This document shows, piece after piece, positions 50,583 to 62,400 of a DNA stretch of 64,000 nucleotides. Made by a program: the position numbers and the translations under genes. The notes below the pieces were generated by a model. The model saw only the letters and a list, made by a program, of their open reading frames with translations, did no database searches and was not told where the DNA came from. The DNA is taken from positions 806,001 through 870,000 of the forward strand of contig CP034120.1 of assembly GCA_003856375.1 (NCBI GenBank), given 5' to 3'. The DNA comes from Glaciecola amylolytica. Lineage in GTDB: Bacteria > Bacteroidota > Bacteroidia > Flavobacteriales_D > Crocinitomicaceae. The stretch's first letter is position 1; the number at the start of each line of letters is the position of its first letter.

Positions 50583-53500
50583 TTAATTTTTTACAATCTG
50601 TATTGTAGCAGATCTGCCTTCGTTGTCGGATATCGTAAGTAAATAAACACCACGCGCATGTGTAATATCAAGATCGATCAATTGAGTTTCTTCATAGTGC
50701 TGGCTCTCAACCATTCTTCCAAGTGCATCCTGCAATGTCAGGGTGATGGCATGATGCGTTTTGCCTAAGTCAATTTTTACAAGACCCAAAGTCGGATTGG
50801 GATATGCTTTCAGTTCAGTTCCGAAAGAATGACTTTTCACTCCAACATCCGTTACACTTACGCAATCGCTGGTATCTGTACAACCATTCGCTGAGGTAAC
50901 GATCACAGCATATGTACCATTCGCTTCTGGTGTGTAGCTTTGGAAAGTTGCAGGATCAATCGGAGAGAATGAACCGTCGCATTTTACCCATTGATATGTA
51001 GCCCCGGTTTCACCAACTTTCAGCGTACCGTCGTCGAGGATAGTTACGGATACATTGACAGATAGAATGGTTAAGTTTAATGTGACTACTGAATCACAAC
51101 CTGCTGCGTTTGTTCCTGTCCATGTGTATGCCCCGGAAGTGGTATAGTTTGTTCCATGCCAGTTATAATTTCCACACGCCGTTACAGAACTATTTGAACT
51201 TGTCGGTTGCTTGATTATTAAGTTCAATGTTACTACTGAATCACAACCAACTGCATTAGTTCCAATCCATGTATAAGCTCCACTGGAAGTATAAGTTGTA
51301 CCATGCCACGAGTAAGTTCCGCATGATGCTACTGAACTGCTTGAACTTGTTGGCTGTTTGATTGTTAAGTTCAAAGTTACCACTGAATCACAACCTACGG
51401 TATTAGTTCCGATCCATGTATACGCTCCACTGGAAGTATAAGTTGTTCCGTGCCACGAGTAAGTTCCACAAGCGCTGGCACTAAGAGATGAACTTGTCGG
51501 TTGCTTGATTATTAAGTTCAATGTTACCACTGAATCACAGCCAACTGCGTTTGTTCCGATCCATGTATACGCTCCACTGGAAGTATAAGTTGTACCATGC
51601 CAAGTGTAAGTTCCGCATGATGCTACTGAGCTACTTGAACTTGTTGGCTGTTTGATTGTTAAGTTCAAAGTTACCACTGAATCACAACCAACTGCATTAG
51701 TTCCGATCCATGTGTAAGCTCCGCTGGAAGTATAAGTTGTACCATGCCAAGTGTAAGTTCCGCATGATGCTACTGAGCTACTTGAACTTGTTGGCTGTTT
51801 GATTATTAAGTTCAATGTTACCACTGAATCACAGCCAACTGCGTTTGTTCCGATCCATGTATACGCTCCACTGGAAGTGTAAGTTGTTCCGTGCCACGAG
51901 TAAGTTCCGCATGCACTTGCGCTGACGGATGAATTTGTCGGTTGCTTGATTGTTAAGTTCAAAGTTACCGTTGAATCACAACCAGCCGCATTAGTTCCGA
52001 TCCATGTATACGCTCCACTGGAAGTATAAGTTGTTCCGTGCCAAGAGTAATTTCCACAAGCACTTGCGCTGACGGATGAACTTGTCGGTTGCTTGATTGT
52101 TAAGTTCAAAGTTACTACTGAATCACAGCCAACTGCGTTTGTTCCTGTCCATGTGTAAGCTCCACTGGAAGTATAGTTTGTTCCGTGCCAGTTGTAAGTT
52201 CCACACGCACTTGCACTAACAGAAGAACTTGTCGGTTGCTTAATAATTAAATTCAAAGCTACCGTTGAATCACATCCTGCGGCATTTGTTCCTGTCCATG
52301 TGTATGACCCGGAAGTAGTGTAGTTTGTCCCATGCCAAGAGTAATTTCCACAAGCACTTGCGCTAACAGAAGAACTTGTCGATTGTTTGATTATTAAGTT
52401 CAAAGTAACTACTGAATCACAACCAGCCGCATTTATTCCAGTCCATGTGTACGACCCGGAAGTTGTATAGTTTGTTCCGTGCCATGTATAAGTTCCACAA
52501 GCACTTGCGCTGACAGAAGAACTTGTCGGTTGTTTGATTGTTAAGTTCAATGTTACCGTTGAATCACAACCAGCAGCATTCGTTCCTGTCCATGTGTACG
52601 ATCCGGAAGTAGTATAGTTTGTTCCGTGCCAGTTGTAAGTTCCACACGCACTTGCACTAAGAGATGAACTTGTCGGTTGTTTGATTATTAAGTTCAAAGT
52701 AACTACTGAATCACAACCTGCAGCATTTGTTCCAGTCCACGTATAAGCTCCGCTGGAAGTATAGTTTGTCCCATGCCAAGAGTAATTTCCGCAAGCACTT
52801 GCACTAACAGATGAACTTGTCGGTTGTTTGATTATTAAGTTCAAAGTAACTACTGAATCACAACCTGCAGCATTTGTTCCAGTCCACGTATAAGCTCCGC
52901 TGGAAGTATAGGTTGTTCCGTGCCACGAGTAAGTTCCACAAGCACTTGCACTAACAGATGAACTTGTCGGTTGTTTGATTGTTAAGTTCAAAGTAACTAC
53001 TGAATCACAACCAACTGTATTTGTTCCTGTCCAAGTGTACGACCCGGAAGTGGTATAGTTTGTTCCGTGCCAGTTGTAAGTTCCACACGCACTTGCACTA
53101 ACAGAAGAACTTGTCGGTTGTTTGATTGTTAAGTTCAAAGTAACCACTGAATCACAACCTGCTGCGTTTGTTCCAGTCCATGTATATGCTCCACTGGAAG
53201 TATAAGTTGTTCCGTGCCATGTGTAAGTTCCACATGCTGTTGCTGAACTGTTAGACGTCGTTGCTTGCTTGATGATGAGGTTCAGGGTTTCCGTCTTAAT
53301 ACAGCCTGATCCATTTGTTCCCGTCCAGGTGTATGAGCCTGAAGCTGTGTAGGTCGTTCCATGCCAGATGTAAGAAGTACAAGCTGTAACAGAACTGCTT
53401 GATGTTGTCGATTGATTGATCGTAAGATTCAATGTTACTACTGAATCACATCCTGCAGCATTTGTTCCTGTCCAGGTATACAAACCGGAAGTGGTATATG

Positions 53501-56500
53501 TCATTCCGTGCCATGTATAACTGTCACACGCAGTAGCTGTAGTAGTGGAAGTCGTTGGTTGCTTGATTGTTAAATTCAATGTTACCACTGAATCACATCC
53601 TGCAGCATTTGTTCCCGTCCAGGTATATGAACCGGAAGTAGTATAAGTTGTTCCATGCCAGGAGTAATTTCCGCACGCCGTTACTGAGCTGCTTGAACTT
53701 GTCGGTTGTTTGATCGTTAAGTTCAATGTTGCCACTGAATCACAACCCGCAGCGTTTGTTCCTGTCCAGGTATAAGTTCCGCTGGAAGAATAGTTTGTTC
53801 CATGCCATGAATAGCTCGTACAGGCACTCACCGGAGTAGTGGAAGTTGTTGGCTGCTTAATCGTCAGGTTTAATGTTGCCGTAGAGTCACATCCGTTGGC
53901 ATTCGTTCCGGACCAGGTATAAGTTCCGGAGCTTGTATAAGTTGTCCCGTTCCAGATGTAGCTGTTACAAACAGACAGGGTTGTGTTGGAACTTGTTCCG
54001 TTGTCTATTGTTAGGTTCAAAGTAACAATACTATCACAACCCGACACGTTTAATAAGGTGTCTTTGTAAATCCCGGCAACGGTTAAAATTGTTCCGTTAA
54101 ACGAATAAGAACCACCCGGACAAATAGATGCTGTAAACATCGTTTGGTTGACACATGGATCCAGCTCGTAGGCACCGATGTCAACCGTTGTGTTTTGGAT
54201 ACGTGTATTGCCGTCCAGGTCAAGAGTTACTCCAGCCGGAACATAGGTGTTGTTTCCATGATTTATGGCAATAGAGTTCGCAGCCACATGAAAATCATTT
54301 GCTGCGGTGTCTACAAAGAAAGGAGGGAGGTTGTAATTTGTTGCACCATTCGGGAAATGTTGGATAATTGAGTTGAACGGCAGGTAAGAAGCCTGTCCGA
54401 AGTAATTGTCTGTTGACTCGTTGTAGTAAACAATCGAGTTGTAAAGGCTTTTAGTGGAATTGTTGTAAACTCCGGCACCTTTGTCGTCTGCACTGACGCT
54501 GCTGGTAGATTTATTCTCAGAAATTGTAAGACTCGACATGGTTGATGTTGCTGAGTTATAGATCCCGCCTCCATAAGCTTTGTTTGGACTGATCACGCGA
54601 TTACCGGTAATCAGGCAGTTGGAAATGAATCCCGAACCGGCAGTATAGGCTCCACCTCCGAAAACATCTCCTTTATTTGCCTGTGCGGTATTCCCGGAAA
54701 TCTTCGTGCGGAAAATATGCCCGGCACTGGAAAAATAGATTCCACCACCATAGGTTGTAGGAGTATTCGGGTTACCCATTTGGGCAGCGTTGTTTGTGAT
54801 CGTACAGCCATCGATGTGAACCTGATAAGCTGCCGGTGTGGTTTCGATTGAAACACCTCCACCTCTGGTAGCACTTTGATTGATATCCGAATAGGCTGCA
54901 GAGTTTATTTGGTTTCCTGCAAATTCGCAGTTCAATAGTTTAGAAGGTCCGGTTGAAGGTGCTGATGAGATTTCGGAACAGAAACCTGCACCTTTGGTTA
55001 GTGCCTGAACAGAATAACCGGTATATGTTGCATCTGCATTCCCCTGATTGTTATTGTTGTAAAAGGAAGAGTTCCGAACATTAAAATAAGCTGTTGTATA
55101 GATTCCACCTCCATAAGCAATGGCGTTTTGCGGATTGTAGGTCATGTAATTTTCCGTGTTGTAATTCATCGAGGAACTCATCACGTTATTGTTGAACGTA
55201 CAATTGTCCGCATCAAGTACACTAACAGTAAAGAGTCCACCTCCGTATGCTCCTGCCTGTGAAGCGAAAGTTCCTGTTTGATTAACCGTAACAGTTATCG
55301 AGTTGTTATTGAAGTCAGAACCTGTTATCGTTAAAGGAGCACCTCCGTATAATCCAGCTCCTCTTCCGTTGGCAGGAGTCTTGGAAGAAAGGATCGTGTT
55401 GTTTGAAAATTCGCAGTTGTTTACTTCAAAAGGCAGCGAACCAAAAACACCTCCCAGATAAGCACCGGCACCGGAATTTGACTGACCCGAATTAAGTGCG
55501 TTATAATTAAATTGTGAAGTTGAAATATATGCTTTTTTGGTTTGTGTGGTGTAGATACCTCCACCCGATGTAGTAACTCCTCCGGTAGCGGAGTTAGTGA
55601 GAAACTCACAGTTCGAGATGCGCAAGGTATCACCGTTGAAATAAACCCCACCGCCAGATGCTTCACCATAAGTGGAGTTCAAAGCAATAGCCAGAGTTGA
55701 ATTGTTATTGATTTTTGTTCCGGTTAGTTGCAAAGTATTAGCCGTTGACCCGATACAGTAGATTCCACCTCCGTATGAATACGTATTGAGAGATCCGTTT
55801 TTTGCAATAGCATTGTTTAAAATCTGTGAATTGGTTACGATGATATTGGAGACACCTGTTCGTTTCAAACAGATTCCACCACCGTAAACATCTCCGTAGC
55901 CGCCAGATGTTACGGAATTGTTTGAAACAATTGTGCTTGTGATCTGCACAGAAGCTGAGCTGCAATAAATACCGCCACCACCAAGGAAAGCATTACTATT
56001 GTAATAGACACTTGCTTCTACGAGCTTATTGTTGCGGATGACCGAATTTGTTAAAGTCAAGGCACCGCTGTTTTCGATGTACAGACCCGCGCCTGCACCA
56101 CCTGTTGCCCCTTCTGACAAGCAGTTATTGTCTGCAATGATTAAGTTATTTAATTGAACGGTTCCTCCATCCTGAATGAAAATTCCGGCTCCTTTTCCCC
56201 TTACCACGCCTGCGCGGGAGTTACCGCCCACGATCTTGATACCGTCTATAAAAACGGAGGTAGCGTTTCCTACCAGATACATGACGCGGTAAGCATTGTC
56301 AGTATTACTTCCCAACACACCAATATCCCCCGAAAGTATTGTTTCGTTGGTGCGGTTCGCTCCGGAAGCAGCCGGTGTTAAGTTAACACGTTGGTTGATA
56401 TTCGTTTCCGTACCTGCGAAATTCCCGTAAAGTTTCACGTTGTCGCCCAAGACAAAGCTGTTATTCGGGTCATTCATATCGGATGTGTAATATGTTCCGG

Positions 56501-56696
56501 CAGCAACCCAGATTTCATCGCCGCTGGCTGCAAAAGCGAGTGCCCATTCCAGATTGGTGTAGGCATTTGTCCAGGAAGTACCATTGTTGGCTCCTGTGGC
56601 ATTTTGTTTGACGTATATCCTTGCTGCAAAAGTGTTCGCAGAACTGATAATTAAGCAAAATACAAGGAGTAGTTTAAGAAAGGATGAATGTTTCAT
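50583..56696 (-). CDS. Giant secreted protein: right-handed beta-helix head, 20 tandem 49-aa repeats, T9SS type A signal
   Basis: A 2037-residue protein from ATG 56696 (MKHSSFLKLLLVFCLIISSA signal); a 60-residue upstream extension is rejected because the promoter box lies within it. Residues about 25-890 form a pectin-lyase-like beta-helix with many Asn and GGGIY turns, beginning IYVKQNATGANNGTSWTNAY. A divergent repeat and 20 near-identical 49-residue units follow (WHGTTYTSSGAYTWTGTNAA, GCDSVVTLNLTIKQP), each with two Cys. Then comes a short Ig-like module and the type A sorting domain (LKAYPNPTLGLVKIDLGK to IVKN). It is probably a surface or released adhesin with a long stalk. The target is unknown. 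Confidence 0.9.
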   Translation of the reverse strand: MKHSSFLKLLLVFCLIISSANTFAARIYVKQNATGANNGTSWTNAYTNLEWALAFAASGDEIWVAAGTYYTSDMNDPNNSFVLGDNVKLYGNFAGTETNINQRVNLTPAASGANRTNETILSGDIGVLGSNTDNAYRVMYLVGNATSVFIDGIKIVGGNSRAGVVRGKGAGIFIQDGGTVQLNNLIIADNNCLSEGATGGAGAGLYIENSGALTLTNSVIRNNKLVEASVYYNSNAFLGGGGIYCSSASVQITSTIVSNNSVTSGGYGDVYGGGICLKRTGVSNIIVTNSQILNNAIAKNGSLNTYSYGGGIYCIGSTANTLQLTGTKINNNSTLAIALNSTYGEASGGGVYFNGDTLRISNCEFLTNSATGGVTTSGGGIYTTQTKKAYISTSQFNYNALNSGQSNSGAGAYLGGVFGSLPFEVNNCEFSNNTILSSKTPANGRGAGLYGGAPLTITGSDFNNNSITVTVNQTGTFASQAGAYGGGLFTVSVLDADNCTFNNNVMSSSMNYNTENYMTYNPQNAIAYGGGIYTTAYFNVRNSSFYNNNNQGNADATYTGYSVQALTKGAGFCSEISSAPSTGPSKLLNCEFAGNQINSAAYSDINQSATRGGGVSIETTPAAYQVHIDGCTITNNAAQMGNPNTPTTYGGGIYFSSAGHIFRTKISGNTAQANKGDVFGGGAYTAGSGFISNCLITGNRVISPNKAYGGGIYNSATSTMSSLTISENKSTSSVSADDKGAGVYNNSTKSLYNSIVYYNESTDNYFGQASYLPFNSIIQHFPNGATNYNLPPFFVDTAANDFHVAANSIAINHGNNTYVPAGVTLDLDGNTRIQNTTVDIGAYELDPCVNQTMFTASICPGGSYSFNGTILTVAGIYKDTLLNVSGCDSIVTLNLTIDNGTSSNTTLSVCNSYIWNGTTYTSSGTYTWSGTNANGCDSTATLNLTIKQPTTSTTPVSACTSYSWHGTNYSSSGTYTWTGTNAAGCDSVATLNLTIKQPTSSSSSVTACGNYSWHGTTYTTSGSYTWTGTNAAGCDSVVTLNLTIKQPTTSTTTATACDSYTWHGMTYTTSGLYTWTGTNAAGCDSVVTLNLTINQSTTSSSSVTACTSYIWHGTTYTASGSYTWTGTNGSGCIKTETLNLIIKQATTSNSSATACGTYTWHGTTYTSSGAYTWTGTNAAGCDSVVTLNLTIKQPTSSSVSASACGTYNWHGTNYTTSGSYTWTGTNTVGCDSVVTLNLTIKQPTSSSVSASACGTYSWHGTTYTSSGAYTWTGTNAAGCDSVVTLNLIIKQPTSSSVSASACGNYSWHGTNYTSSGAYTWTGTNAAGCDSVVTLNLIIKQPTSSSLSASACGTYNWHGTNYTTSGSYTWTGTNAAGCDSTVTLNLTIKQPTSSSVSASACGTYTWHGTNYTTSGSYTWTGINAAGCDSVVTLNLIIKQSTSSSVSASACGNYSWHGTNYTTSGSYTWTGTNAAGCDSTVALNLIIKQPTSSSVSASACGTYNWHGTNYTSSGAYTWTGTNAVGCDSVVTLNLTIKQPTSSSVSASACGNYSWHGTTYTSSGAYTWIGTNAAGCDSTVTLNLTIKQPTNSSVSASACGTYSWHGTTYTSSGAYTWIGTNAVGCDSVVTLNLIIKQPTSSSSSVASCGTYTWHGTTYTSSGAYTWIGTNAVGCDSVVTLNLTIKQPTSSSSSVASCGTYTWHGTTYTSSGAYTWIGTNAVGCDSVVTLNLIIKQPTSSSLSASACGTYSWHGTTYTSSGAYTWIGTNTVGCDSVVTLNLTIKQPTSSSSSVASCGTYSWHGTTYTSSGAYTWIGTNAVGCDSVVTLNLIIKQPTSSNSSVTACGNYNWHGTNYTTSGAYTWTGTNAAGCDSVVTLNLTILSVNVSVTILDDGTLKVGETGATYQWVKCDGSFSPIDPATFQSYTPEANGTYAVIVTSANGCTDTSDCVSVTDVGVKSHSFGTELKAYPNPTLGLVKIDLGKTHHAITLTLQDALGRMVESQHYEETQLIDLDITHARGVYLLTISDNEGRSATIQIVKN
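51061..54005 (-). repeat. Tandem array of 20 units of 147 bp (49 codons) within the giant protein gene
   Basis: About 2.94 kb, 20 in-frame units of 147 bp. Units near the C-terminal side are almost identical (only positions such as T/I in WTG/WIG and SVSAS/SSSVAS vary), while the first five or six toward the head are more diverged. Every unit keeps WHG (WNG in the first unit), a TN-x-x-GC turn (CDS in all but one) and two Cys. The pattern indicates expansion by unequal crossing-over or slippage toward the distal end. Confidence 0.92.
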
Positions 56697-56731
56697 CGGG
56701 TGGTAACAGTTAAATTTTAAATAAAGTTGTG

Positions 56732-56739
56732 CAAAAATA
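56732..56739 (-). promoter_or_regulatory. -7 box of the giant repeat protein gene
   Basis: TATTTTTG on the minus strand matches TAnnTTTG, 35 nt before the ATG at 56696. It supports that ATG over the longer reading frame. Confidence 0.45.
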
Positions 56740-57060
56740 CGATTCTTATAAAGAAACGGATCACCCTTTGTGGTTTTTGACCGGAAGACGATTTCTTTTT
56801 CTTCAGAGTTTATTCGTTTCAGATTCATGTTTTTATAGCGCAGATTTGTTTCTGATTTTGAACAAAAGTAAGCCATTAAAAGGGGCAGGTACTTAGGAAT
56901 ATTTACTGAATTAATATTAGGCGGGTTTTATTTTATATCCGCTGAGAAATGGAATATATTCGTTTTGAATTCTCACGGAAATTTAATTTTTTAGTTCATT
57001 ATAAATTCTGGTTATCAGATTATTGCCTCTTTTTTTTACTGAAGCTTCCGGGTAAGTACC

Positions 57061-58243: not shown

Positions 58244-58504
58244 TCAGATTCTGGCAAATGTGTGAATCTCCTGATACAATTCAGTAATGGCTTCAATAAG
58301 TTGATGATCGCGCCGGGTGATTTTATTCTGATCGTGAGAATAAACTGCGATACTCAATTCGGAGCAATGCCTGATTGTCAGATCGGGATGATGGTCCATC
58401 TGATCTGCTAGTTTTGCTATCTGAAGAACAAAATCTGCCAGTTCTTCCTGATTTTTGAAATGCACGACAGTTCTAAATTGATGTGCTATGAGGTTCCAAT
58501 GCAT
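58244..58504 (-). CDS. phhB: Pterin-4-alpha-carbinolamine dehydratase
   Basis: An 86-residue protein, slightly short for the family. It dehydrates the 4a-hydroxy-pterin made by aromatic amino-acid hydroxylases and so helps recycle the pterin cofactor. The signature is visible as MDHHPDL (36-42, His38, His39, Pro40) followed by an SIAVYSHDQNKITRRD segment with His57. The start ATG at 58504 lies 32 nt inside the end of phhA, so the two are translationally coupled and clearly act together. This pairing fixes the assignment. Confidence 0.9.
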   Translation of the reverse strand: MHWNLIAHQFRTVVHFKNQEELADFVLQIAKLADQMDHHPDLTIRHCSELSIAVYSHDQNKITRRDHQLIEAITELYQEIHTFARI

Positions 58505-59219
58505 GAGCGTATTTTTTTGAAAGGATTTGTATTGTTTGTTCTAGTTGTGCCAGATGATCGAGTACAAAATAATTTTGCTGCAGTTCGCTGGTACAGAAAT
58601 CGGTTTCAATAATTTGTTCCGCATCAAACGGATGATGAACGACTTCTCCCGAACCCGAAAGACTTGATATCGATTCATGAAAGGAAGAAATGATTCCCGC
58701 TCCGAAAATGCGCAACTCGTTACCCTCGGAAATTAATCCGAATTCAATAGTGAACCAGTACAAACGCTGTAATTGCAGTAGAATTTCCGGATTGCTCTTA
58801 TGTGCTTTACCCAAAATCCCGAATTGATGAATGAAACGTGAGTATCCGGGATTGGAAAGCAGGGGAATATGGCCGAAAATATCGTGAAACATATCAGGCT
58901 CTTCCAGGTAATCCAATTTGTCTTTTGAGCGCAGCCAGGTCGAGGACGGAAACTTTTTCTCTGAAAGTAATTCAAAGAATTCATCCACTTCGATCAATCC
59001 CGGAACACAAGCTATTTCCCAGCCCGTATGTTTCGAAAACCATTCATTGATCTTTCCGAAATGAGGAAGCTGATACGGATTCAAAACAGCATTCATCGAT
59101 TCAAGAGCTGCCAGATAATCACGGGAAGCTTTGTGTTTCAGGTTTTCAATCTGCCGCTCAAATAAGGTCGACCAAACAGCTAAATCTTCTGCTGTGTACT
59201 TTTCAAATTGTTGTTTCAT
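58473..59219 (-). CDS. phhA: Phenylalanine 4-monooxygenase (aromatic amino-acid hydroxylase)
   Basis: A 248-residue catalytic-domain-only hydroxylase of the bacterial type. It converts phenylalanine to tyrosine with tetrahydropterin and oxygen. The iron ligands are His112 and His117 in EEPDMFHDIFGHIPLL and Glu159 in YWFTIEFGLI. The W/F pocket and C-terminal helix are present (LEQTIQILSKKY). The adjacent carbinolamine dehydratase gene overlaps its end by 32 nt. An intrinsic terminator and a Tyr-rich leader ORF lie upstream, indicating attenuation by tyrosine. Phe is the expected substrate, but Tyr or Trp hydroxylase cannot be fully excluded by sequence. Confidence 0.93.
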   Translation of the reverse strand: MKQQFEKYTAEDLAVWSTLFERQIENLKHKASRDYLAALESMNAVLNPYQLPHFGKINEWFSKHTGWEIACVPGLIEVDEFFELLSEKKFPSSTWLRSKDKLDYLEEPDMFHDIFGHIPLLSNPGYSRFIHQFGILGKAHKSNPEILLQLQRLYWFTIEFGLISEGNELRIFGAGIISSFHESISSLSGSGEVVHHPFDAEQIIETDFCTSELQQNYFVLDHLAQLEQTIQILSKKYAHALEPHSTSI

Positions 59220-59247
59220 TTCAAAAAAGAAAAAATGATTAAATAAA

Positions 59248-59277
59248 AAAAGCCCGATTCGTAAGAACCGGGCTTTT
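59248..59277 (-). terminator. Attenuator terminator upstream of phhA
   Basis: On the minus strand arms AAAAGCCCGGTTC and GAATCGGGCTTTT form 13 pairs (one G-U) around a 4-nt loop, followed by TTTTTTTATTT. It lies 28 nt before the phhA ATG and 24 nt after the leader ORF stop. Its 5' arm (CGGTTCTT) can instead pair with AGGAACCG of the leader ORF at 59314-59307, an antiterminator. Confidence 0.88.
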
Positions 59278-59301
59278 CAGCTATAAAGTTTGCATAACGA
59301 C

Positions 59302-59364
59302 TTATTCGGTTCCTGGATTTAGAAACGCATAATAATAAGTACTGATGTGCATATGTTTATTCAT
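59302..59364 (-). CDS. Tyr-rich leader peptide of the phhAB attenuator (20 aa)
   Basis: A 20-codon ORF, ATG at 59364 to TAA at 59302. Codons 10-12 are three consecutive TAT (Tyr), followed by Ala and Phe. A second ATG (codon 5) is in frame. The promoter -7 box ends 4 nt before the first ATG, so the first ATG would be leaderless. The last codons, Gly-Thr-Glu, contain the antiterminator strand. A ribosome stalled at the Tyr codons would leave that strand free, while one that reaches the stop would cover it. The peptide itself is probably not functional; translation is the signal. Confidence 0.78.
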   Translation of the reverse strand: MNKHMHISTYYYAFLNPGTE

Positions 59365-59368
59365 GTTA

Positions 59369-59400
59369 CAAATGTAGGACAATGTTTTATAAATAACAAA
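59369..59400 (-). promoter_or_regulatory. Promoter of the phhAB leader transcript
   Basis: On the minus strand TTTG (59400-59397), a 20-nt spacer and TACATTTG (59376-59369): an exact Bacteroidota sigma-ABfr promoter. It places transcription start at or within a base or two of the leader ATG. Confidence 0.75.
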
Positions 59401-59460: not shown

Positions 59461-62400
59461 CTATCCCGTTTTATGTTTCTTCTGTCTGCTCAAACTCACG
59501 GAGAAATTTTCTGTGTTTCCAACGATCTTCACCGTTACGAAGCGCATTTTGTCTGTTCTGTATTGAACCGCGTCTTCCTGATCGATGGAAACTTCTTCTT
59601 TTTTTCTTCCGAACAACTTCTTGAAACCGGCTTCCGTGACCATTTTCAAGGGAACACTGATGAGGTATTCCATGTTGGCTTTGGCATCCTGTTTCCCTGA
59701 AATTTCCAGATAGCCGAGGGAAGTGTTGATTCCCATTTTCGGAACGGTCAACTCTCCGTTTTTCATTTTCAGGTTGTTCTGCAAACTGTCGAAATGAATT
59801 TTTGAAAGGTTTTTATCCTGGAAATAATCGGCTAAACTCTTCATCGGAGCGTAGTTCTCCAAACGGCCTTTCAGTACTTCAATCTTCAGATCGATTTCCG
59901 AATCATCCAGTTTTGGTGTCATGTCCGCATGCATGTGGATTTTTCCGGTTAAGGATCCGGATAATTTTCCGTGCAGGTTTTCGGCAACCACATGATCCTG
60001 ACCAAAATTGTCGAATTTCAGTAAAAGCTGATCCAGCTGAATGTTTTTGATCGTCAGATTTGGCCGCAGATAAATGTGCTTTTTATCGGTTGCAGTGAAA
60101 TATCCTGTCATTCCGATTTGACCTCCTGCAGCGTGCAGATCGCATTTCGAAAAGGAAACATGATGATTGCTTTTGGTGTGGAACTGCGTATTCAATTGCG
60201 TGATATGATACTTGTGGTATTTCAGATCGTGAACCATGAAACTGAACTCCATTTCGGGAAACGGAATATCGTAGATGCTGAAAACATTGTCGTGATCTAC
60301 TTTTTGCGGAACCGCTGTTGAAGCAGCTTTCGGAGCCTGCTCGGTGTAATTGATCAATTGGTCGATATCCAGTCGATTGGATTTCAAATGAATCAGGTTG
60401 TCGCGTTTTTTCAATTCAGGATTATCTCCCAAATAGTAGTTCATATCCAGATGCAGATCCGAATTTCCTATTTTGGCATCCATTTCTTTCACGACCAAAT
60501 GTTCGTTTTCCAAATGAAATCTTCCATCCAAACGATCAATCCGCAAAGGGTGAATCTTCATTTTTGCAGTGAAATGATCGAGTTGCAGATCCGTTGATTT
60601 TAATCCGTGATCGAAATGCATCGCTACATTTCCGTGGAATTTCAATTGATCCAATTCTTCGTGGTGGTAATCTGCAGGAATGAAATTTTCACCCTTGTAA
60701 ACCAACAAATCTTCCAGTTTGAGTTTGTTGGAATTGAGTTTGAAGTCAATGGTTGTATTTCCGTTTAGTTTGTCTTCAAACCACAAATTGTAATTCAGAA
60801 TTCCACCATTGAAATGAAAATCGGATTCATCAATCTGTCCGGTGAAATCGACCACTTTGAAATTGTCCTCCCGAATAATGACGTCGGCGTGGAAATCATG
60901 CAGCACATGCGGATAATGCTTCAATTTGGCATAGAGATCATCGACATAAAATTCGCCCAAAGGAAGCGTCGGAGATTCTGTAATGGCTCTCGCACTGGTA
61001 ATGAATTTGAATTGAGCATGGAGATTCGTCAATTCTTCGTCAACGCTTGGTTTTGAAGCAGCATCAGATTTGGAAAGTTCCCCGAAATCCATGCGTTTTG
61101 CCTGTATATTTAGCTGCGTTGTTACGGGAATGTCCGTGTGATGAATAATTGCAGGAAGATCACTGATCATTCCGGAAATGGAAACATCGCTTCGACCGAC
61201 ATGCATATTAATAAAGTCGATTTTGGCCTGATGTCCGTCCATGTGCGCCATGATATCGATGTCGTGAATCTTGTAAGGCAATTTGCGCGAATTGAAAGAC
61301 AAATTCTTTACTTCCAGTTTACTTTCATACGCTTCATTGAGCTTTTCGATGCTTTTTTCAGGATGATCGAGATCAATGATATCCTTAAACTTCATCGTCA
61401 GTTTCACATTTCCTTTCAGTCCGGTGAGTTCCTGGGAATTGATGAATTTCGCCAGAAAATCCAGATTGAAATCCGAAATCAGTTTCATATCCACATTCGG
61501 TGCATTGAAATTTGAAACGGTGATTAATCCCGTGAATTTCCCTGTTTCCGGTCGTGCGCTGAAATCCGAAATCCCGAATTCCATGGTTTCCAGCGAACGT
61601 TTTTCTCCGTTGGTAAAATAACCCTTGAAGCGGATTCCGTCTACTTTTTTATGTGTCAGTTCATTGCTGAAGAAAGCGTCTTTACATCCGAAATCGGCTC
61701 TGATTGCGGGCATCATTCCATTGAGTGTTTTTCCTTTGATAGAAGCTTTGAAAAAGAGTTTTCCACGGTTTTCATATTCTTCAAATACCTTGATCAATTC
61801 TTGCGGAGCCAAGGCAATAAACAGGTTAAAGTTCGGCTTGTCTCCATGTAATTTCAGATCCAGATCCATTTCATTGGCAATATCTATTTTTCCTTCAATC
61901 CCGAAAAAAGAATTCTCCAATTGGATTTCTGTTGGACTGATGGTTAGAAAATTGCTCGCTTGATCGAAAAGAACTTCCGTTGCGAATTGCAGGTGTTTGT
62001 GCCGAATAAAAGTGGGTTTTCCATGTTGGGAAATGGAAAGTTGAAACTTGCTGTCCAGTTCCGTGTCAATCACATCATCCTTTATTTTGAATTTGCTTGT
62101 TGCCTTTTCAATATCCAGATCAATCAAAACCGCATTGGCCTCATTGTATTTCCGGATATCGATGTGATCCAACACGATCGATTTCAGGTCCAGATGCAGT
62201 TCTTCTTCAATTTCTTCTGCTTTTTTGGTCGAAGAAAGCGCGTTCAAAAGGTTTAAACTTCCGTCTAAATGCTGTGTCAGATGAATCTTTCCGTTTTTCG
62301 CTTTAATGGATTTGATTTCGGTTTTTCCGGAGATTATGGTCCACAAATCAAAACCAACATATACATCCTGAACTTTCAGGATCGGTTTGCCCTTTTGTTT

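Follow-up and report, generated by a model that had tools for sequence, protein, structure and literature searches.

Features of the phhA locus

The window, by which we mean the whole 64-kb stretch of bacteroidote DNA analyzed here, encodes on its minus strand a phenylalanine 4-hydroxylase of 248 aa, phhA (58473–59219; PF00351, E 2.2e-39), which is the gene predicted to be under control, and a pterin-4a-carbinolamine dehydratase of 86 aa, phhB (58244–58504; PF01329, E 1.1e-12). The phhA product is a Biopterin_H protein whose sequence fits a phenylalanine hydroxylase, and phhB comes next; by their coordinates the start of phhB overlaps the 3' end of phhA, and the two genes presumably form one operon. 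Upstream, on the same strand, an AsmA-like gene ends at 59461. Toward phhA on the minus strand follow a promoter, TAAC, a short open reading frame (ORF), a 24-nt spacer, a hairpin, 28 nt, and then phhA and phhB. Every element that a preliminary description of this DNA had listed on the minus strand (promoter, 20-codon ORF, 8-nt segment and 13-bp terminator) was found again, and the gap it gave is exact, with 28 nt separating the hairpin from the phhA ATG at 59219. Elsewhere in the window (50583–56876) we noted by eye a protein of 2097 aa that has numerous similar repeats in tandem and ends in a tail resembling a secretion sorting tail.

TTTG at -33 belongs to the Bacteroidota promoter consensus, and the promoter (59369–59400, minus strand) is of this type, with TTTG at -33, 20 nt, and TACATTTG at -7; a scan for the sigma-70 consensus returned a chance-level site alone. 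The leader-peptide ORF of 20 codons, MNKHMHISTYYYAFLNPGTE (59302–59364, minus strand), is recognized from its sequence and from homologous Tyr-run ORFs. It contains the Tyr codons TAT TAT TAT (59329–59337, minus strand), the predicted stall site, and is the sole ATG ORF of 8–40 codons with three consecutive Tyr on either strand of the window. Its end carries the antiterminator strand, segment 2 (AGGAACCG; 59307–59314, minus strand), which can pair with the terminator 5' arm and is followed after 2 nt by the UAA stop codon. The intrinsic terminator (3:4), identified from sequence and fold, is a 13-bp hairpin, AAAAGCCCGGTTC-TTAC-GAATCGGGCTTTT (59248–59277, minus strand), with one G-U pair within its stem and a T tract of seven T, four of them within the stem, that ends at 59245. 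It is the one terminator-like site that the scan found (shuffles mean 0.1). The leader has a folding energy of -32.7 kcal/mol (z -3.76; 1 of 200 shuffles as good), and its minimum-energy fold contains a 1:2 anti-antiterminator hairpin, missing from the preliminary description, that pairs the Tyr-codon stretch with the antiterminator strand (59293–59347, minus strand, limits approximate). At this locus the 1:2 hairpin has a z of -1.43 in the shuffle test that was applied to 72 leaders (below), and the duplex of segment 2 with the terminator arm has a p of 0.020. The complementarity of 8 nt described for this duplex can be made more precise: six of the eight pairs lie in the terminator 5' arm, and the other two need loop bases, one as G-U.

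Tyr leaders recur before phhA

We compared this region with phhA loci from other Bacteroidota, drawn from a PhhA search of a named-genome collection (best 80 of at least 583 relatives), of 119 relatives (44 with a match) and of 395 class genomes (109 with a match, many of these in longer frames of about 555–655 residues). Among the best 80 of at least 583, the nearest named PhhA relatives are Fluviicola, at 71 and 69% identity, so that the window probably comes from this genus or a close one. Short-form phhA genes gave 170 upstream regions, of which 25 near-duplicates were removed and 145 kept; the short-form matches in G106, G397, G375, G429 and G175, partial or weaker, were left out. One kept locus without real upstream sequence (L014) was scored as a miss, and a few have less than 300 nt upstream. 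A Tyr leader was defined as an ATG ORF with at least three Tyr in five codons within 300 nt of phhA.

By this rule, 76 of the 145 loci have a Tyr leader, against a mean of 3.3 and a maximum of 8 in 100 shuffles and a single case on the reverse strand. The next residues under the same ATG rule are Leu, at 30 loci (16 on the reverse strand), and Ser, at 9. A looser first test found 78 of 145 for Tyr (shuffles mean 6.7, maximum 12) and 64 for Leu, the latter inside its own shuffles (mean 55, maximum 64), and permitting GTG starts under the stricter rule raised the number of Tyr leaders to 79 of 145. The peptides of the 76 leaders hold 3–7 Tyr each. Since 59 of the 280 Tyr-run codons are TAC, it is the residue that is conserved and not the letters. 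Within the 76, one ORF (L020) probably arose by chance, and at L123 the script chose the wrong one of two ORFs, a YYYYY leader lying farther upstream, so that no terminator was scored there.

Named genomes with the leader are Fluviicola chungangensis (L003), Flavobacterium gelidilacus (L011), Planktosalinus lacus (L021) and Psychroflexus salis, lacisalsi, montanilacus, tropicus and gondwanensis (L026, L030, L037, L040 and L049), and it occurs also in metagenome bins labelled Saprospiraceae, Chitinophagales, Lewinella and Vicingaceae. The 69 loci that fail the ATG rule include those of Cesiribacter andamanensis (L067), Confluentibacter flavum (L059) and Flavobacterium daejeonense (L048). Some failures are near misses, in which the ORF starts with GTG, the run has fewer Tyr, or an insertion separates the leader from phhA; other failing loci have phhA close behind another gene and no leader. 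The insertion is found in a same-genus genome (L209, reverse strand, 1501–1855, also L094), where about 235 bp of repeat-like sequence part the Tyr leader from phhA. A long-form biopterin-dependent hydroxylase, with frames of about 555–704 residues, occurs in G009 and many class genomes, and none of eight upstream regions of long-form aromatic hydroxylases has a Tyr leader.

Terminator and antiterminator across the leaders

The preliminary description had made its reading depend on whether relatives keep the terminator together with the Tyr codons and the complementary segment. These elements are kept together in the leader-bearing loci (76 of 145): 72 of the 76 have a terminator in the stretch from the Tyr run to phhA (shuffled mean 0.15, maximum 1). 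Complementarity between the ORF tail and the arm of its own terminator exceeds that of shuffles made within each locus (mean z -2.43; 48 of 72 loci at p<0.05), and in those 48 segment 2 begins 9–16 nt past the last Tyr codon, 9 being the minimum of the script. The tails also prefer their own arm, which binds at -11.33 kcal/mol versus -8.60 for permuted arms (sd 0.25; 0 of 10000 as low), in a test that ignores relatedness. Joint changes of the two strands are seen at L031 (CCGTTCCCG with CGGGAAC), L079 (CCAGCCC with GGGCTTGG) and L049 (TCCCGATTC with GAATCGG). Over the 72 leaders the 1:2 hairpin has a mean z of -2.9, and 59 of them fall below a z of -1.64.

The preliminary description had also proposed a check for co-variation, for which the count on the antiterminator at a fixed register is weak. 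In an alignment that took 57 of the 72 terminator-bearing leaders, all 9 of the terminator consensus pairs show at least one change on both sides. On a MAFFT alignment in the register of the window, antiterminator cells are paired in 65.8% of cases versus 63.9% when shuffled (28 of 500 shuffles as high), with 20 cells changed on both sides versus 9.7 when shuffled (1 of 500). Sliding the antiterminator register by one column pairs better, at 74.7%. We read the fixed-register weakness as misalignment of segment 2; these counts are no proof of antiterminator covariation.

The ribosome-masked folding suggested earlier bears out a switch. With a ribosome masked on the Tyr codons, 76–78% of the terminator arm is paired upstream, versus 10–11% with the ribosome on the stop codon, and the fold switches between these two positions in 59 of 72 loci. 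Shuffled tails still capture 44% of the arm versus 75% observed, so part of this contrast reflects the greater length of RNA left free by a stalled ribosome. At equilibrium the terminator, at a mean of -14.7 kcal/mol, is more stable than the antiterminator stretch at -11.6 kcal/mol, and the switch must therefore be kinetic.

A probably leaderless start

The leader ATG stands 4 nt after the promoter box. Among the 76 related leaders, 54 have TAnnTTTG 0–25 nt before an in-frame leader ATG (shuffles mean 1.9); the spacing is 4 nt in 21 of these 54 (shuffles mean 0.055) and 3–9 nt in 43, where the spacing shuffles cover only the stretch before the first ATG and the observed count admits any in-frame ATG before the Tyr run. 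Excerpts of PMC9723704 place TAnnTTTG at -12 to -5, and together with the 4-nt gap this would put position +1 on the A of the ATG. From these spacings, the leader mRNA is probably leaderless, with a predicted transcription start at or beside that A. Leaderless leaders would be unusual, as leaderless mRNAs make up 5.5% in Flavobacterium psychrophilum and are reported there as rare (PMC9723704).

Leaders of the same layout with other codon runs

We built a covariance model of the leader and searched with it under the stricter filters of Infernal, so that the counts from both searches are lower bounds. In the organism's own genome, under these filters, the one match at E up to 0.001 is the phhA leader itself. 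The 33 matches listed for the relatives comprise 24 before phhA, four His leaders and one Ile leader before an ilvE-type gene, and the 38 of the class set comprise 18 before phhA, two before tyrA, two before hisG and eight before ilv or aspartokinase genes; we examined 31 of the 33 and 30 of the 38. Two of the relatives' matches (L211 and L212) are terminators without a visible leader ORF and thus not leaders. Genes behind L232, L242, L241, L239, L233, L236, L213, L230, L235 and L209 were checked with Pfam; those behind L202, L208, L240, L223, L229 and L238 were named by similar N-terminal sequence alone.

Two Tyr leaders stand directly before tyrA, MIINIGTYYYEIFSSDLG and VLINNRTYYYGIFSLRKG (L232 and L242, reverse strand, 1501), in two genomes of one family that have no phhA match. 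These two cases come from the model search alone, and a Tyr leader before tyrA is no general rule: none of 40 tyrA upstream regions has one, with 29 of the 40 tyrA genes behind a long upstream frame. His leaders of the same layout precede hisG (L202:1501, L208:1501, L236:1501 and L240, reverse strand, 1501), such as MKMNNTHHHHVNAQRAW. The relatives' four His leaders carry HHHH; L202 and L208 show the hisG start, and the other two are L207 and L210. Ile, Val or Thr/Ile leaders, for example MTKLINIIIISIITIQ, MKISTKNIISVVVVVS and MIFNTSIITTIIITTG, precede ilv-type or aspartokinase genes (L213:1501 and L230:1501; L235, L238, L239 and L241, reverse strand, 1501). Parsing yielded no codon-run ORF in L223, L229 or L233. 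Where the run could be read and the next gene was known, the codon run fits the pathway in 12 non-phhA leaders (L202, L208, L213, L230, L232, L235, L236, L238, L239, L240, L241 and L242), which lends independent support to the mechanism. On balance, we favor the view that Bacteroidota hold widespread near-leaderless attenuators of a common layout with interchangeable Tyr, His, Ile, Val or Thr/Ile runs, in which the Tyr version would be tied to the tyrosine-making reaction; this version is found before phhA at roughly half of the phhA loci sampled and before tyrA in two genomes.

Tyrosine supply in leader-bearing genomes

The organism's own genome has chorismate synthase and gave no match to PF02153 (prephenate dehydrogenase, TyrA; profile matches in 13 of 14 control genomes) or to PF00800 (prephenate dehydratase; profile matches in 14 of 14 control genomes). 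Given that neither was found, PhhA is the likely source of tyrosine, and the organism probably makes its tyrosine from phenylalanine via PhhA alone. This agrees with the end-product feedback proposed earlier, in which PhhA makes tyrosine under tyrosine control. Bacterial phenylalanine hydroxylase is usually described as catabolic (PMC7311316); the genome also has a 4-hydroxyphenylpyruvate dioxygenase, so that PhhA could feed tyrosine breakdown as well. Excerpts of the GapMind article propose a biosynthetic role of a PhhA-type enzyme for Dyella, Legionella and Echinicola, in Dyella and the bacteroidote Echinicola from fitness data (PMC7311316).

Taking a strong TyrA as a PF02153 match with E below 1e-20, which is present in 75 of 395 class genomes, we compared phhA loci with and without the leader. 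In the class set (57 phhA loci), a strong TyrA accompanies 0 of 23 loci with an ATG leader versus 15 of 34 without; when GTG starts are allowed, the counts are 1 of 24 versus 14 of 33 (Fisher p 0.0017, relatedness ignored). The relatives set shows no association (1 of 25 with the leader versus 0 of 10 without, relatedness ignored). The absence of TyrA is at best a weak marker of the leader.

Proposed mechanism and alternatives

The structural features that mark an attenuator are present, at this locus or across the related leaders: a codon-run ORF, a terminator, an antiterminator pairing that would exclude the terminator, a 1:2 hairpin, and a codon that matches the predicted gene product. The 1:2, 2:3 and 3:4 pairing scheme is that of the classical attenuator, and the same pairings are predicted here. 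We consider it very likely that the region is a ribosome-mediated transcription attenuator of the trp/his/pheA layout that is specific for tyrosine and controls phhA-phhB, and this interpretation, already put forward in the preliminary description, is well supported by the comparison of related loci. Transcription would begin at or beside the leader AUG, and a ribosome would load on the (nearly) leaderless end. At low levels of charged tRNA-Tyr, the ribosome would stall on the run of three Tyr codons, and its leading edge would leave segment 2 free; segment 2 could then pair with the terminator 5' arm while the 3' arm is still to be transcribed, which would allow read-through into phhAB. When tyrosine is plentiful, the ribosome would reach the UAA and cover segment 2, and the terminator would form. 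With no ribosome on the leader, the 1:2 hairpin would sequester segment 2, and the terminator would again form. As PhhA makes tyrosine from phenylalanine, the circuit would amount to end-product control. We infer translation of the leader ORF and, in the living cell, a response of termination to tyrosine.

The alternatives that we weighed all appear improbable. The region might be an attenuator in which a nascent peptide that binds free tyrosine, or some other ligand, halts the ribosome, and not a lack of charged tRNA-Tyr, as TnaC stalls through its nascent peptide with tryptophan. The closest loci would allow for this, as they are partly conserved outside the Tyr run, with FLNxGTE or FLIQGTE endings (L001, L002, L003, L082, L083 and L086). 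Over the 76 leaders, however, the residues flanking the run show wide variation and the tail tracks the complementarity instead, and leaders of the same layout carry matching runs (HHHH before hisG, Ile or Val before ilv); we regard stalling by the nascent peptide as very unlikely. Equally unlikely is a leader that senses slow translation in general, with tyrosine as one of several inputs, and that serves mainly phenylalanine catabolism. The RNA would fold in the same way after a stall of any cause over the Tyr codons, and the presence of 4-hydroxyphenylpyruvate dioxygenase suits a catabolic role, but the 3–7 Tyr per peptide in 76 leaders argue for a specific signal, and catabolism fits poorly with a genome in which TyrA was not found and with the rarity of a strong TyrA alongside the leader (class set 1 of 24, relatives set 1 of 25). 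It is most improbable that the hairpin is the terminator of the AsmA-like gene, which ends at 59461 on the same strand, and the Tyr-run ORF a product of chance, since, although AT-rich 5' regions do hold chance short ORFs (Tyr-run shuffles mean 3.3 of 145), a Tyr-run ORF is found upstream of phhA at 76 of 145 loci, the promoter box sits between the AsmA-like gene and the ORF, TAnnTTTG lies within 25 nt before an in-frame ATG in 54 of 76 leaders, and the ORF tail complements the terminator arm.

Relation to known leaders and significance

No Rfam family matches the leader at the gathering score, and the 26 matches at E up to 10 are led by Thr_leader, at 26.5 bits versus a cut-off of 55. Neither the T-box riboswitch, which includes a tyrosine class, nor Bacteroid-trp RNA (RF01692), a Trp leader, matches at the gathering score or among those at E up to 10. 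The tyrosine-specific attenuator that we propose shares with the trp/his/pheA-type attenuators, such as E. coli trpL and pheL, a codon-run leader ORF and a terminator before a biosynthetic gene. Unlike trpL and pheL, which are described in PMC11802643, it is Tyr-specific, targets a pterin-dependent hydroxylase, is probably leaderless, and belongs to a bacteroidote host. The AroR leader of Corynebacterium glutamicum aroF is likewise a Tyr-containing aromatic leader on an aromatic amino-acid gene; according to excerpts of the same article, AroR reads Phe-Tyr-Phe and is reported to be insensitive to tyrosine (PMC11802643), whereas the phhA leader has a pure Tyr run before a tyrosine-making gene. 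Bacteroid-trp RNA is also a candidate cis-regulatory RNA in Bacteroidetes (PMC2864571), for another amino acid and another gene. For F. psychrophilum, 'strong clues' are reported that leader peptides attenuate operons of amino-acid biosynthesis, in a passage that names neither a tyrosine leader nor phhA (PMC9723704). In Rfam and in excerpts of the open-licence literature we found no classical tyrosine-specific attenuator, on phhA or otherwise. The mechanism is that of textbooks; the tyrosine specificity, the phhA target and the breadth appear to be new.

If the proposed attenuation is true, many Bacteroidota would regulate phenylalanine hydroxylase as a gene of tyrosine biosynthesis, and the leader would illustrate how a leader peptide can be leaderless in a group for which leaderless mRNAs are reported as rare. 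The Tyr leader would then also serve as a mark, readable from the genome, of a biosynthetic role of PhhA.
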